The notes beneath the pieces are model-generated. The model was not told the DNA's origin, made no database searches, and saw only the letters and a program-made list of their open reading frames with translations. Below, one piece after another: positions 34,957-46,317 of a stretch of DNA of 64,000 nucleotides. Positions within the stretch are counted from its first letter, which is position 1. Every line of letters starts with the position of its first letter. The translations under genes were made by a program, and so were the position numbers. Source of the stretch: Deltaproteobacteria bacterium (GTDB taxonomy: Bacteria; Myxococcota; B64-G9); assembly GCA_019314375.1 (NCBI GenBank), contig JAFCZJ010000003.1, positions 1-64,000 on the forward strand, given 5' to 3'.

Positions 34957-35967
34957 TCATGGATGAAGTTCCTTTTTTAGACTGCGGCCCATCAAGTTGT
35001 GCACCACCGAGGCAGCAGGCAGATCCTCATATAGCATACGATAGACCTGATCGGCGATGGGCATATCCACGTCTTCTCGACGAGCCAACGCATGAACACT
35101 GCGAGCGGTTTTCACGCCCTCGGCCACCTGACGCATCTCTCCCAGGATTTCGGCCAGGTTCCGCCCCTGGCCCAATTTCTGACCCACCTGCCGATTGCGG
35201 CTCAAGCCCCCGGTGCATGTCAGCACCAAATCGCCCATGCCGCTCAGGCCCGCCAGGGTCAGTGGATTGGCACCCAGCTTGACCGCCAAGCGAGTCATCT
35301 CAGCCAAACCCCGAGTAATCAAGGCCGCGGCGGTGTTGTAGCCGAAACCCAGGCCGTCGGCCGTCCCGGCCGCGATCGCCATCACGTTTTTCAGCGCACC
35401 GCCCAGCTCCACCCCCACCACGTCGGTTGAGGTATAAACGCGGAAAAACGGGCCGGAAAGCTGTTGCTGTACCTGCTCAGCCACCCGTTCAAAACGGGCC
35501 GCCACACTGACCGCCGTTGGGTGCCCCAAGCCCACCTCGCGAGCAAAGCTAGGCCCGGACAAAAAGGCCAGCATGGGATGATAAACGATGGGCAAGACAT
35601 CTTCCAAGACCTCGCACATGGTCATCAAGCTGTCATTTTCCACGCCCTTGCTAGCGCTGACGATGGGCACACCCCGGGGAAGGTGGGCCGCCCCTTGCAC
35701 GACGACCTGGCGCATCACATGGGAAGGCACGACCAACAGAACCAATTCGGCACCCTCAAGGCCTTCGGCCAAGGATGAGGTAGCCTTCAGGGTCTCGGGC
35801 AACTTAATCTCAGGCAAATAGGTTCGGTTTTCGTGATGGAGATTAATCTCTTCGCTCACTTCTGGCTCGAAAGCCCAAAGAATCACCTCATGGCCTTGCC
35901 GGGCCAAGTGCAAAGCCAAGGCAGTACCCCACGCGCCCGCGCCAATCACCGCCACCCGTGTCGCCAT
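34957..35967 (-). CDS. gpsA: Glycerol-3-phosphate dehydrogenase [NAD(P)+] (copy 1)
   Basis: The enzyme reduces dihydroxyacetone phosphate to sn-glycerol-3-phosphate for phospholipid synthesis. The N-terminal Rossmann motif is VAVIGAGAWGTALALHLA; other signatures are LSGPSFAREV, GVELGGALKNVMAIAAG and LAGLSGMGDLVLTCTGGLSRNR. The start at 35967 (MATRVAVIGAGAWG) matches family length. A GTG at 35991, overlapping the stop of the AAA gene and preceded by GAGGAG, is a credible alternative with eight extra residues. A second gpsA lies at 45292. Its place after a GspE/PilB-type ATPase and an AAA ATPase is unusual. Confidence 0.95.
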   Translation of the reverse strand: MATRVAVIGAGAWGTALALHLARQGHEVILWAFEPEVSEEINLHHENRTYLPEIKLPETLKATSSLAEGLEGAELVLLVVPSHVMRQVVVQGAAHLPRGVPIVSASKGVENDSLMTMCEVLEDVLPIVYHPMLAFLSGPSFAREVGLGHPTAVSVAARFERVAEQVQQQLSGPFFRVYTSTDVVGVELGGALKNVMAIAAGTADGLGFGYNTAAALITRGLAEMTRLAVKLGANPLTLAGLSGMGDLVLTCTGGLSRNRQVGQKLGQGRNLAEILGEMRQVAEGVKTARSVHALARREDVDMPIADQVYRMLYEDLPAASVVHNLMGRSLKKELHP

Positions 35968-35993
35968 CTGATCTTCTGCCCGTGCGGCCACCG

Positions 35994-37451
35994 TCACTCC
36001 TCGTCGAAGAGATCCACCAAGCTGGAGTCCAGGCTGGCGGGACGCGCCCTGTCCTTGGCCCAATCCCGCAGAGCTTTGATCTTCTCTTCATAGGTATTGT
36101 AGAGAGGTACGATTTTCTCCAGCTCGCGCTGGATGTCTTCCTGGGTCAAATCTCGATTCTGCTCGAAGGCCCGAAATAACCCAGCCAAAACCCCTTGCTC
36201 CAACTCCGCGCCTGAAAAATGCTCAGCCTGCTCGGCCAGGCTGGCCGGATCAAATCCGTCGGTCTTCTTCGCCCGGCGCTCCAAATGGATGCGCAGGATA
36301 TTCTCGCGCTCGTGCACATTGGGCAGGTCCACAAAAAACACCTCGTCAAATCGGCCCTTTCTCAAAAGCTCAGGAGGCAATGCATGCACTTCATTGGCCG
36401 TGGCCACGACAAAAACCGGGGCTTTCTTCTCTTGCAACCAAGTAATGAAGGAACCAAAAACGCGAGAGGATCCGTCACCACCGTCCGCCTTGACCGCGGA
36501 GAAACCCTTCTCGATCTCGTCAACCCACAACACCACCGGAGCCAAAGACTCAGACACCCGCATGGCGTGCCGAATGGAAGCCTCGGGAGATGGCGTACCG
36601 AAAGCCGCGGCTAAGTCAAGCCGAACCAAAGGAAGACGCCAAGTGCCCGCCACCGCTTTCGCGGTCAAGCTTTTTCCGCAACCCTGCACGCCGATGAGCA
36701 GCAAACCCTTGGGCGCCGGCAACCCTGCACGACTGGCCTCGGCGCCGAAACCCTTGGCCCGGGAATGCAACCAACGCTTCAGCTCATCCAGGCCACCCAC
36801 CACATCCAGACTCTCCTCCAGGTCGAAAAAATCCAGCACCTGACTTTTGCGAAGGGCCTTCCTTTTCTCCTCGATCACCAGGGTAATGTTGTCGAGTTTG
36901 AACCCCCCACCTTTGCGCAGGGCCTTGGTAAACACCCGCCGCGCCTCGTTATCGGTCAGGCCCCTGGCCGCCCGGATCATGTTGTCAACAAAATCTTCCG
37001 GGAACAGAACCTGCTCTTCGACGCAGATTTGGCGAAACCGGGCGTCCAACTCCTCAGCAGAAGGCAGCGGCAAATCGAGCACGGCGAACTCTTTCTCCAG
37101 CTCCGATGGCATTTCCAAAACCGGGGCCACCACCACCAGCATGTGCTGGTTGCGGCTACAGGAGACCAAGACATCGCGGAGACGACGTACGACCTTGGGG
37201 TCGGCCAAATGCACGTGGAAATCAAGCAAAGCTGTAGCCCCGGCCGGGGCCTTCGACAATTCGTCGAGCAACGCCAAGGGGTCTTCGGTCTGGCCGCCAG
37301 CCGTCTGGCTCCAGGCTCGACTTGGACGACCCAAATCAGCCATGGCCTCTTCGAGCAACCGCTGCGCCCGATCTTCTTCATGGGTCAGTAAATAGACCAG
37401 GGAATAGCCGGATGAAGCCAACAAAGACAGTTCTTCGGCTACAGGATGCAT
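35994..37451 (-). CDS. AAA ATPase of the Ycf46 type
   Basis: The 485-aa protein has a divergent N-terminal P-loop-less domain (~1-200, with LLDFHVHLADPKVVRRLRDV) and a C-terminal AAA domain. The AAA part has GLDELKRWL, Walker A GVQGCGKS, Walker B VVLWVDEIEKGF, sensor ATANEV and the arginine-finger region RKGRFDEVFFVD. This layout is that of Ycf46-like AAA ATPases of cyanobacteria and deltaproteobacteria, whose role is poorly defined. It lies 42 bases after the GspE/PilB-type gene and its stop touches the gpsA start region, so the three are probably one transcript. Confidence 0.9.
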   Translation of the reverse strand: MHPVAEELSLLASSGYSLVYLLTHEEDRAQRLLEEAMADLGRPSRAWSQTAGGQTEDPLALLDELSKAPAGATALLDFHVHLADPKVVRRLRDVLVSCSRNQHMLVVVAPVLEMPSELEKEFAVLDLPLPSAEELDARFRQICVEEQVLFPEDFVDNMIRAARGLTDNEARRVFTKALRKGGGFKLDNITLVIEEKRKALRKSQVLDFFDLEESLDVVGGLDELKRWLHSRAKGFGAEASRAGLPAPKGLLLIGVQGCGKSLTAKAVAGTWRLPLVRLDLAAAFGTPSPEASIRHAMRVSESLAPVVLWVDEIEKGFSAVKADGGDGSSRVFGSFITWLQEKKAPVFVVATANEVHALPPELLRKGRFDEVFFVDLPNVHERENILRIHLERRAKKTDGFDPASLAEQAEHFSGAELEQGVLAGLFRAFEQNRDLTQEDIQRELEKIVPLYNTYEEKIKALRDWAKDRARPASLDSSLVDLFDEE

Positions 37452-39410: not shown

Positions 39411-39434
39411 CAGCCACCAACCACGGAGGACCGC

Positions 39435-40700
39435 ATGAGACGTAGCCCCATGACAGGCCTGTTGATGCTGGGCCTGCTGACCTTCATCGGCGCCGGCCTG
39501 ATCGGATGTCCCGAGCAGCCGACCGGTCAGGCAGACTCAAGCAGCGTCAACGCTGACCCAGGCACCGACACCACGGCGGCGGCACCAGTGATCACTTGCG
39601 CCGAAGCCAAACATGACTTCGGCACCGTGCCTCAGGGCCAAGAAGTCAAACATGTCTTCACTGTGAAAAACACCGGCAAAGGCGTGCTGAAGATCATACG
39701 CGCCAAAGGTGGCTGAGGCTGCACCGCCGCCGTTGTTTCGGCGAGCGAACTTCCCCCGGGCGGGGAAGGAAAAATTGAAGTCAAAGTATTCACCCGTGGT
39801 CGTCAAGGCAAACTGTCGAAGAGCATTAACGTCGAGTCCAATGATCCCAAGACCCCACGCCTGAAACTGACCATCAGCGGCCAGGTCGAGGTGGTGGTTG
39901 GGTTCGCCAAATCTCGAATGGACTTCCGCGCCGTGAGCAAGGGATCCAGCAACGAAGCCATCATCAAGCTGACAGGCAAACAGCTTGCGAAACTCAAATT
40001 GTCCGAGATTTCCTCCACTCATCCCGACGTACTCAAAGCCGTGGAAATCAAAACCGAGGATGGGGCCAAGGCCCTAAAGGTGACCTTCAAGGCGGGGGAC
40101 AAGGTCGAGTTTTTCCGGGCCAAGATCACGGCCAAGACCAACATCCCGAAGGTGCCCTCATTAACCCTGGCGGTCTCAGCCCGGGTCAGTGAGGACATCA
40201 ACGCCATGCCTACCTCCTTGTGGTTCACCGAGGCCGGCGCAAAAAACAACAAACGCCCTGGCATGAAAAGCAGCACTCGGCCCAGGACCTTCAGCGTGAC
40301 TTCCTTGAGCAAGCAGGCCTTCAAAATCACCAAGGTCGAGGATCCGACAGGTGCCGTGGAGGCCAAGGCCAGCTCCACCGCCAAGGGCTGGGTTGTGCGG
40401 GCCACCATGAAGAAGCAACCAGAAAAGAAAATGGGCAAGCTGATCGTCCACACGGACAGCAAGAAGCAGCCGACCCTTGAAATCAGCTATCGCATTCGCT
40501 CGATGGGCCCAACCCGCGGTCGTATTCCAAACCGCATATTGCCTGGAATGCGTAAACCCAGGCCAGGCAAATCGGGTTTTCGAATCGACTCCAAACGTCC
40601 AGGCCGAATCCCAATGAAAGCCAAACCACGAGGCCCGGGCAAGGGCCTGCGCATCAAGCCGGTTGCCCCGATAAAGGTCCAACAGAAACCGGCTAGTTAG
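39435..40700 (+). CDS. DUF1573-family lipoprotein; probable selenoprotein with in-frame UGA (Sec94)
   Basis: The start follows GGAGG and yields a lipoprotein signal (MTGLLMLGLLTFIGAGLIGC). The first 93 codons end at TGA 39714-39716, but the same frame continues without a stop to 40700, for 421 aa. Before the TGA is the DUF1573 pattern HDFGTVPQGQEVKHVFTVKN and GVLKIIRAKGG. Directly after it come GCTAAVVSASELPPGGEGKI, GRQGKLSKSI and NDPKTPRLKLTISG. The family hallmark is CGCT; the first Cys codon is here TGA, so the motif reads Sec-Gly-Cys-Thr. Two further Ig/DUF1573-like domains (~150-345) and a basic Pro-rich tail follow. A hairpin sits 9 nt after the UGA, and a tRNA-Sec gene is 2.8 kb away. 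A nonsense mutation or sequencing error is the alternative, but exact replacement of the motif cysteine argues against it. The role of DUF1573 is unknown; it is periplasmic and membrane-anchored here. Confidence 0.85.
39725..39747 (+). promoter_or_regulatory. Candidate bacterial SECIS hairpin
   Basis: CGC (39725-39727) and CGCCG (39728-39732) pair with CGGCG (39739-39743) and GCG (39745-39747), with a bulged A at 39744 and the loop TTGTTT. The loop starts 17 nt after the UGA (16 intervening bases), within the spacing known for bacterial SECIS elements. A second stable hairpin (CTTCCCC/GGGGAAG, 39750-39768) follows. Confidence 0.55.
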
Positions 40701-43461: not shown

Positions 43462-43559
43462 GGAAGTGCCTAGGTCACTGGTGGGCCTCCCGGGCTTCAA
43501 ACCCGGTGTGACGTGTGAGAAGCGCGTCAGGTGGGTTCGATTCCCATGCACTTCCGCCA
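43462..43559 (+). tRNA. selC: tRNA-Sec (anticodon TCA)
   Basis: The 98-nt gene has an 8-bp acceptor stem (GGAAGTGC with GCACTTCC), discriminator G and encoded CCA. The anticodon arm is CCGGG-CTTCAAA-CCCGG, so the anticodon is TCA, reading UGA. There is a long variable arm (TGACG/CGTCA stem) and a normal T arm with TTCGATT. The 8-bp acceptor and long extra arm are the hallmarks of bacterial selenocysteine tRNA. Sec synthesis genes (selA, selB, selD) are not in the window. Confidence 0.97.
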
Positions 43560-45291: not shown

Positions 45292-46317
45292 ATGTCAACG
45301 ATGGAAAAACTGGAAGTTCTGGTCATCGGAGGAGGCAGCTTCGGCACGGCGCTGGCCACCATATTGGCCAACAACAAACGCCGAGTCGCCATGTGGGTGC
45401 GCCGCCAGGAGCAGGCCGACGAGATCAACCAACAGCACAGCAACGAGCGCTATTTACCTGAGCACAAGCTGCCCGAGAGCCTGAGCGCCATCACCGATCT
45501 ACCTCTGGGCGTTCGGAGCACCCCCATCATTCTCATGAGTGTGCCCTCCAAAGCGTTCCGTCAGGTGGCAAGGCAGATAGGCGACCATTTGACCGGGGAA
45601 CAAATCATTGTGCACACCACCAAAGGCATCGAAGTAGACAGTTTTAAACGCATGAGCCAAGTGCTCAAGGAAGAAACCTGCGCGCTGAAAATCGGCGTTT
45701 TGAGCGGGCCGAACCTGGCCCGAGAGTTGATGGCCGGGCATCCGGCCGGTGCCCTGGTGGCCTCCCGCTACGCTCAGGTCACTCATGCCGCCCAGGAACT
45801 CTTTACGGGCAGCCGACTTCGGGTCTACACCGGCCAGGATGTGGTGGGCACCGAGTTCGGTGGCGCCTTCAAAAACATCATCGCCCTGGCCGCCGGCGTG
45901 GCCAACGGTCTGGGTTTCGGCGACAACACCAAGGCCCTGCTCATCACTCGAGGGCTCTCTGAGATGGCGCGTTTCGGGGTGGCGGTCGGCGCGGACGTCT
46001 TCACCTTCGGCGGCCTGGCCGGCATCGGCGATCTCATGGCCACCTGCGCTTCGCCGCTAAGCCGCAATCATCAGGTGGGCTCTCGCCTGGCAAAAGGAGA
46101 GAGCTTGGATGACATCATTCAAAGTATGAACCAGGTTTCCGAGGGCGTACCCACCACCAAGGCGGTTTGGCTCCGGGCCCAGACTCTGGGACTGAATCTA
46201 CCCATCGTCAAAGCAGTCTACGGCATGCTTTATGAAAATGTGTCACCCAAAGCCGCGGTAGCCCAACTCATGGAGCTGGGGCTGTCTTCCGAGCTTGCGG
46301 CCCTGCGTTACCAATAG
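45292..46317 (+). CDS. gpsA: Glycerol-3-phosphate dehydrogenase [NAD(P)+] (copy 2)
   Basis: It is the second GpsA paralogue in the window. The Rossmann motif is VLVIGGGSFGTALATILA; further signatures are LSGPNLARELMAGHP, GTEFGGAFKNIIALAAGVANG and LAGIGDLMATCASPLSRNHQVG. Its position between a G3P acyltransferase and an App1-like phosphatase suggests that it feeds sn-glycerol-3-phosphate directly into that pathway. It differs from copy 1 at many positions, so the two are diverged paralogues, not a recent duplication. The start at 45292 has no strong Shine-Dalgarno; coupling to the upstream stop 10 bases away may help. Confidence 0.95.
   Translation: MSTMEKLEVLVIGGGSFGTALATILANNKRRVAMWVRRQEQADEINQQHSNERYLPEHKLPESLSAITDLPLGVRSTPIILMSVPSKAFRQVARQIGDHLTGEQIIVHTTKGIEVDSFKRMSQVLKEETCALKIGVLSGPNLARELMAGHPAGALVASRYAQVTHAAQELFTGSRLRVYTGQDVVGTEFGGAFKNIIALAAGVANGLGFGDNTKALLITRGLSEMARFGVAVGADVFTFGGLAGIGDLMATCASPLSRNHQVGSRLAKGESLDDIIQSMNQVSEGVPTTKAVWLRAQTLGLNLPIVKAVYGMLYENVSPKAAVAQLMELGLSSELAALRYQ

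Follow-up and report, generated by a model that had tools for sequence, protein, structure and literature searches.

The question raised by this locus is whether an open reading frame interrupted by a single in-frame TGA encodes one continuous selenoprotein and, if it does, what kind of protein is made and how its UGA is decoded. We analysed a 64,000-nt stretch of DNA (hereafter the window) in which the first-pass annotation had proposed that a DUF1573 lipoprotein carries selenocysteine (Sec) in place of a conserved cysteine. Our analysis makes it highly likely that the gene at 39435–40700 encodes an exported, probably lipid-anchored selenoprotein of the OS_HP2/DUF1573 family, with its UGA decoded as Sec; its function would most likely be a redox role in the cell envelope. 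The features of the gene itself are as follows:

39435–40700, + strand: predicted selenoprotein gene, exported DUF1573/OS_HP2 family, a 421-residue product carrying Sec at position 94 (domain and profile matches; TGA kept in 10 genomes)
39425–39429, + strand: Shine-Dalgarno-like GGAGG, 5 nt 5' of the ATG (sequence reading)
39582–39926, + strand: DUF1573 domain stretch used for the alignments and the domain structure model
39714–39716, + strand: UGA codon putatively read as Sec, position 1 of a U-G-C motif (alignments)

The frame starts with the ATG at 39435, contains one in-frame TGA as codon 94, and stays open until the TAG that ends at 40700. The Pfam DUF1573 model (PF07610) matches residues 53–151, across the TGA (E 2.4e-27; 95.3 bits against a cut-off of 26.1), which together with reading of the sequence confirms the single frame described in the first-pass annotation. 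Within the CGCT motif it is the first Cys that the TGA replaces, and the protein reads GG-U-GCT where three Bacteroidota DUF1573 proteins read S-CGCT. Its N-terminus has a signal-like start followed by LIGC, which we take, by eye, to be a lipobox, and this agrees with the exported lipoprotein first suggested; the N-termini of its relatives, likewise judged by eye, resemble lipoprotein or ordinary signal peptides. Standard ORF calling cuts the protein at residue 93 and lists two frames, of 93 and 269 residues, in its place. When the window was roughly scanned for frames that a TGA interrupts and whose GC looks coding-like on either side, three candidates including the DUF1573 gene came up, and on reading the other two look like natural stops.

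Homologues were sought first among 146 relatives of the genome that holds the window, then across 195 genomes of its phylum. A single TGA stands at the aligned position in all nine family genomes examined and in one genome from another family (G023), which makes 10 of the 195 phylum genomes, the window's own included. All ten genes have U-G-C at one column, with the second Cys of the motif kept in every Sec form, and neither TAA nor TAG occurs in any of them as found. For seven relatives, one alignment crosses the TGA at 40–47% identity and extends at least as far as window residue 359, so that 265 or more residues beyond the TGA are covered; the contig of G004 ends soon past the TGA, and the match to G023 ends about 67 residues past it. 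Since the UGA is present in 9/9 family genomes, real Sec use is likelier than it would be from a few scattered metagenome sequences, and a thinly characterised predicted selenoprotein family appears here as a stable lineage-wide trait.

Cys occupies the column of the TGA in all six Cys forms aligned, of which three are paralogues and three are annotated Bacteroidota DUF1573 proteins (three of the eight plasmid records matched), so the TGA/Cys pairs that the first-pass annotation had proposed to look for do occur at the first Cys of CGCT, between the 10 TGA genomes on one side and Cys paralogues and homologues on the other. The three Bacteroidota examples share the domain and the motif position with the window protein (35–38% identity to the window domain) but have Cys for Sec, and their genes, of 378–408 nt, encode no counterpart to its long C-terminal portion. 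Cys paralogues share a genome with a Sec form in two cases (two, in tandem, in G001 and one in G005), and these natural Sec/Cys pairs offer a setting for comparing what Sec adds. At the G001 locus (L034, 8817–13010) three DUF1573 homologues stand in tandem, the first with Sec and the other two with Cys at the same position. One Cys paralogue reads C-G-S, keeping only the first Cys, and the Cys pair is therefore not universal. A scan of the genome collection gave one distant Cys relative (L033), and 27 pattern matches in viral contigs included no relative. As judged from the alignments, the distribution of Sec and Cys among homologues is the usual pattern, found here within single genomes.

Genes for decoding UGA as Sec are present in the window and in the genome from which it comes:

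43462–43559, + strand: tRNA-Sec gene, anticodon TCA (ARAGORN; Rfam RF01852, 76.9 bits)

The tRNA-Sec gene starts 2,762 nt past the end of the DUF1573 gene, which bears out the distance of about 2.8 kb given earlier. The window's own genome exceeds the cut-offs for selA (534.9 bits), selB (315.8 bits) and selD (374.9 bits). Across the family, selA passes its curated cut-off in 9/9 genomes (as it does in G023, and in 150/195 genomes of the phylum, including all ten with a Sec form), selB in 8/9 (G005, the exception, has lower-scoring matches only) and selD in 8/9 (the exception, G002, is 70% complete); in seven of the nine family genomes the selD match itself contains an in-frame TGA. In four genomes a tRNA-Sec gene follows the DUF1573 gene at a distance of roughly 172–4,217 nt (those of the window, L034, L038 and L039, with the distance in G001 measured from the alignment end). 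None was found downstream in G007 (18.0 kb searched), G008 (9.4 kb) or G023 (4.8 kb), and G002, G003 and G004 offered less than 2 kb or nothing downstream to search. The nearness of the two genes may be inherited from an ancestral arrangement or may point to co-regulation.

The conserved UGA, the machinery found in these genomes and the conserved RNA sequence past the UGA (described below) are the observed basis of the Sec reading and give it strong support, with decoding predicted to proceed through tRNA-Sec, SelA, SelB and SelD at UGA 39714. We looked for results that contradict it and found none, the TGA being kept in ten genomes and selA, selB and selD all being present in the window's own genome. 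Insertion by a non-Sec route (tryptophan, near-cognate read-through or Cys) or an assembly error, in favour of which we found nothing specific, is scarcely credible, given that the aligned residue is Cys in six Cys forms, that selA is found in all ten genomes, and that an error in one assembly does not explain a TGA carried by ten separate genomes. The alternative that the UGA is a real stop, ending a 93-residue exported peptide or marking a decayed gene with a remnant downstream frame, can draw on the split ORF listing and on UGA ending three of the seven neighbouring genes checked. It is nonetheless very improbable: the DUF1573 domain spans the codon, seven relatives align through it, every one of the 10 genes has UGA there and never TAA or TAG, and synonymous constraint is strong past the UGA, its excess peaking just beyond the codon, which we count on the side of the Sec reading. 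The ordinary use of TGA as a stop in those three neighbours also indicates that the general code is standard, and so, with the TGA recurring in ten genomes, we judged a real stop, a sequencing error and a changed general code all unlikely. The alignments and domain matches thus suggest that 39435–40700 very probably makes an exported protein with Sec where most relatives carry Cys.

Such a protein is not new in kind. The first-pass annotation had considered it a probable new selenoprotein, and this part of its reading did not hold, because the substitution is already known from papers and from a curated profile. A "DUF1573 domain-containing protein" with a UGC motif is catalogued as a selenoprotein in the relevant entries of two reviews (PMC9312934, PMC13188914); the 2022 review refers for it to Zhang and Gladyshev 2007, on the Olavius symbiont (PMC9312934), and in the 2026 review the DUF1573 entry carries the same citation number as the Olavius symbiont (PMC13188914). 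A table row in PMC2398784 reads "OS_HP2, pfam07610, UxC, 2, 2, 354". Each review gives one example accession, and the window's lineage is not named in those entries (PMC9312934, PMC13188914). With its UGA read as Cys, the window protein scores 106.2 bits against the curated cut-off of 100 for NCBIfam NF041425, "OS_HP2 family (seleno)protein"; when the stop was left in, as in our whole-genome search, one of the ten genes passed (G005, 101.1) and the window gene scored 97.1. OS_HP2 as described by NF041425 and the window protein are alike in domain, Sec position and U-G-C motif, and the window protein is a new member of the OS_HP2/DUF1573 selenoprotein family predicted in 2007, not a new family. 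DUF1573 does not appear in the available portions of the deep-Sep paper (PMC12013277), and a search for selenoprotein papers on Myxococc- or myxobacteria, made with guessed terms and thus carrying no weight as evidence, returned none. The remaining interest lies in the lineage-wide fixation of the UGA, in the Sec/Cys pairs within a genome, and in a fixed hairpin off the usual SECIS spacing.

What the protein does is a matter of its motif and fold. The Sec is predicted to sit in the U-G-C motif of an Ig-like (ASH/PapD-type) beta-sandwich outside the cytoplasm, where the Sec-Gly-Cys pair would most likely cycle between selenol/thiol and selenenylsulfide, reducing or exchanging oxidised thiols or peroxides in the envelope. 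A structure model of 358 residues was unusable (mean pLDDT 46.5). The model of the domain is an all-beta sandwich of modest confidence (mean pLDDT 67.7), whose fold matches are weak (none with E < 0.001) and include ASH/PapD-like and related proteins (NBR1, OCRL1, CEP192, HYDIN). Because models and matches are this poor, we draw no argument from residue distances. By sequence, the best solved relative of the profile is 2qsv (E 2e-7), which is without the CGC motif in the alignment.

The main rival to an envelope redox role is that the protein is a selenoprotein whose U-G-C binds a soft metal or a metalloid (mercury, copper or selenium itself, for instance) rather than acting as a redox catalyst. 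A CxC-type pair in an exported beta-sandwich fits soft-metal binding too, nine of the ten Sec forms carry another Cys, their third, immediately ahead of the first conserved strand, and the fold matches include, very weakly, a copper chaperone (rank 26, E 0.14). Against this stand the general weakness of the fold matches, the lack of any metal gene among the neighbours scanned, and the statement in PMC9312934 that the majority of predicted selenoproteins have thiol-based oxidoreductases as homologues. We therefore regard metal binding as unlikely, if a real contender, and redox chemistry by the Sec-Gly-Cys pair in the envelope as the probable function. Genomic context is equally silent on a redox partner, none being present among the neighbours scanned (a T2SSE ATPase, DUF47, a PHO4 phosphate transporter, GDPD, an acyltransferase and glycerol-3-phosphate dehydrogenases). 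We considered a redox operon and found it unsupported, the neighbours common to several relatives being genes of secretion and of phosphate and glycerolipid metabolism. On either side of the region, on opposite strands, stands an NAD-dependent glycerol-3-phosphate dehydrogenase gene (34957–36063 and 45292–46317), and similar pairs occur in L038 and L039.

The last part of the question is how the UGA would be marked for recoding. The signal for decoding is presumably an RNA structure within about 50 nt past the UGA, where two hairpins are predicted:

39725–39747, + strand: HP1, predicted hairpin, loop at 16 nt from the UGA, candidate SECIS at canonical spacing (folding; register varies in relatives)
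39751–39767, + strand: HP2, hairpin TTCCCC-CGGGC-GGGGAA with synonymous codons fixed, candidate SECIS or auxiliary recoding element (10/10 UGA genes)

The codons of HP2, CCC CCG GGN GGG GAA, are fixed in all ten UGA genes at 37–51 nt past the UGA (34–48 in one), and synonymous sites further downstream agree about as well as codon usage predicts. When the ten genes were compared, 8 of the 66 columns with at least eight identical degenerate residues used a single codon, against 1.03 expected from codon usage. Four of these are codons 13, 14, 16 and 17 past the UGA (CCC, CCG, GGG and GAA), for which the product of chance values is 2.4e-13 if independence is assumed and for codons chosen post hoc; the remaining four precede the UGA, at −19, −10, −5 and −4. 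Mean excess synonymous identity follows the same outline, at 0.37 for codons 12–19, 0.17 for codons 1–11, 0.03 for codons 20–60, 0.04 beyond these and 0.14 before the UGA (for G004, both of these comparisons used the codon usage of its own small locus, and the re-draw energies given below that of the G006 locus).

HP2 is paired in 98.3% of cells with almost no variation, and its support is therefore conservation rather than covariation. All ten UGA rows were flagged for it, and no other homologue row among those listed, which include five true Cys forms (two in G001 and one each in G005, G144 and L033); four more rows with Cys at the column were set aside as weak matches to repeats without the CxC motif. 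The 15-base motif of HP2 occurs at the DUF1573 gene in 9/9 family genomes and at two further places (in G002 and G001) that look unrelated, with no comparable frame seen. A longer pattern running from the UGA to HP2 matches eight of the nine family genomes and misses G007, which is one codon shorter; the HP2 loop begins 40 nt past the UGA in nine of ten genes and 37 nt past it in G007. Folding energies of HP2 lie below the mean of synonymous re-draws in all ten genes and reach p <=0.05 in two.

HP1 folds ahead of HP2 in each gene, in a register that is not uniform. With two chosen registers, 63.8% and 74.3% of its cells were paired; in the first count, made jointly for HP1 and HP2, a +3 slide outscored the structure itself on covariation (0.131 against 0.094), and in the second no slide beat the structure's score. 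HP1 energies fall below the mean of synonymous re-draws in 10/10 genes, with p <=0.05 in five. For the whole post-UGA region, p 0.05 is reached in three of ten genes, and G007 folds more weakly than its re-draws (z +1.09). A GT in the HP1 loop is conserved in nine of ten genes, but it lies inside a Val codon in nine of ten and so says little. We did not establish HP1 as a conserved, covarying SECIS, and RNAalifold draws another helix there that uses bases of the UGA itself.

The SECIS model set out in PMC13188914 specifies a loop of 3–9 nt, a stem of 4–16 bp, G at loop position 1 or 2, a spacing of 16–37 nt and an MFE of at most −7.5. The window's hairpins resemble it in lying directly 3' of the UGA, HP1 by its canonical spacing and HP2 by a small loop with G second, and both fold below −7.5 kcal/mol. 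As folded, however, neither satisfies every rule: HP1, at a spacing of 16, has G third in its loop, and HP2, at 40, falls outside 16–37. Relatives come closer in places, G002 having an HP1 with loop GGTC at a spacing of 17 and G007 an HP2 whose spacing of 37 is just within the model.

HP2 could serve as an off-spacing SECIS or as an auxiliary element, and SelB might bind either hairpin. We tentatively propose, with rather less than even confidence, that the DUF1573 Sec genes of this lineage carry a sequence-locked recoding element, CCCC-CGGGN-GGGG, whose loop begins 40 nt past the UGA (37 nt in one gene), behind a variable SECIS-like hairpin. If so, the published SECIS model would overlook such an element or score it wrongly, be it an off-spacing class or a UGA-decoding helper, and HP2 would be a concrete, testable hint at bacterial SECIS elements beyond the present model. 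Nothing like HP2 appears in the few papers on bacterial SECIS elements covered here, and it may already have been published elsewhere.

The competing explanation, that HP2 stands outside Sec insertion and that something else, such as ribosome pausing or protein folding, keeps its codons fixed, is a serious possibility that nevertheless stops short of being probable. In its favour are a loop at 40 nt in nine of ten genes (with G007, at 37, just inside 16–37), three pre-UGA codons that are invariant as well, and energies that fall to p <0.05 against synonymous re-draws in only 2/10 genes. It also fits the SelD genes, in which the hairpin loop lies 20 nt past the UGA (in the four loci folded, of seven with a TGA), so that the lineage uses normal SECIS spacing elsewhere. 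The restriction of HP2 to the ten UGA rows, with none of the other homologue rows listed flagged, and its fixation even in G023, from another family, argue instead for a part in recoding. We also asked whether HP2 is common to other selenoprotein genes and did not find it so, the four folded SelD hairpins being different. At these four loci (L067, L068, L070 and L071) the SelD Sec stands in a GAGU or AGU context and is followed by a similar hairpin of 8–9 pairs with a G-rich loop. Upstream of the DUF1573 UGA, at 39660–39713, GTG at −10, CGC at −5 and GCC at −4 are synonymously invariant in the 8–9 genes that share the residue, and a small hairpin immediately 5' of the UGA is possible.
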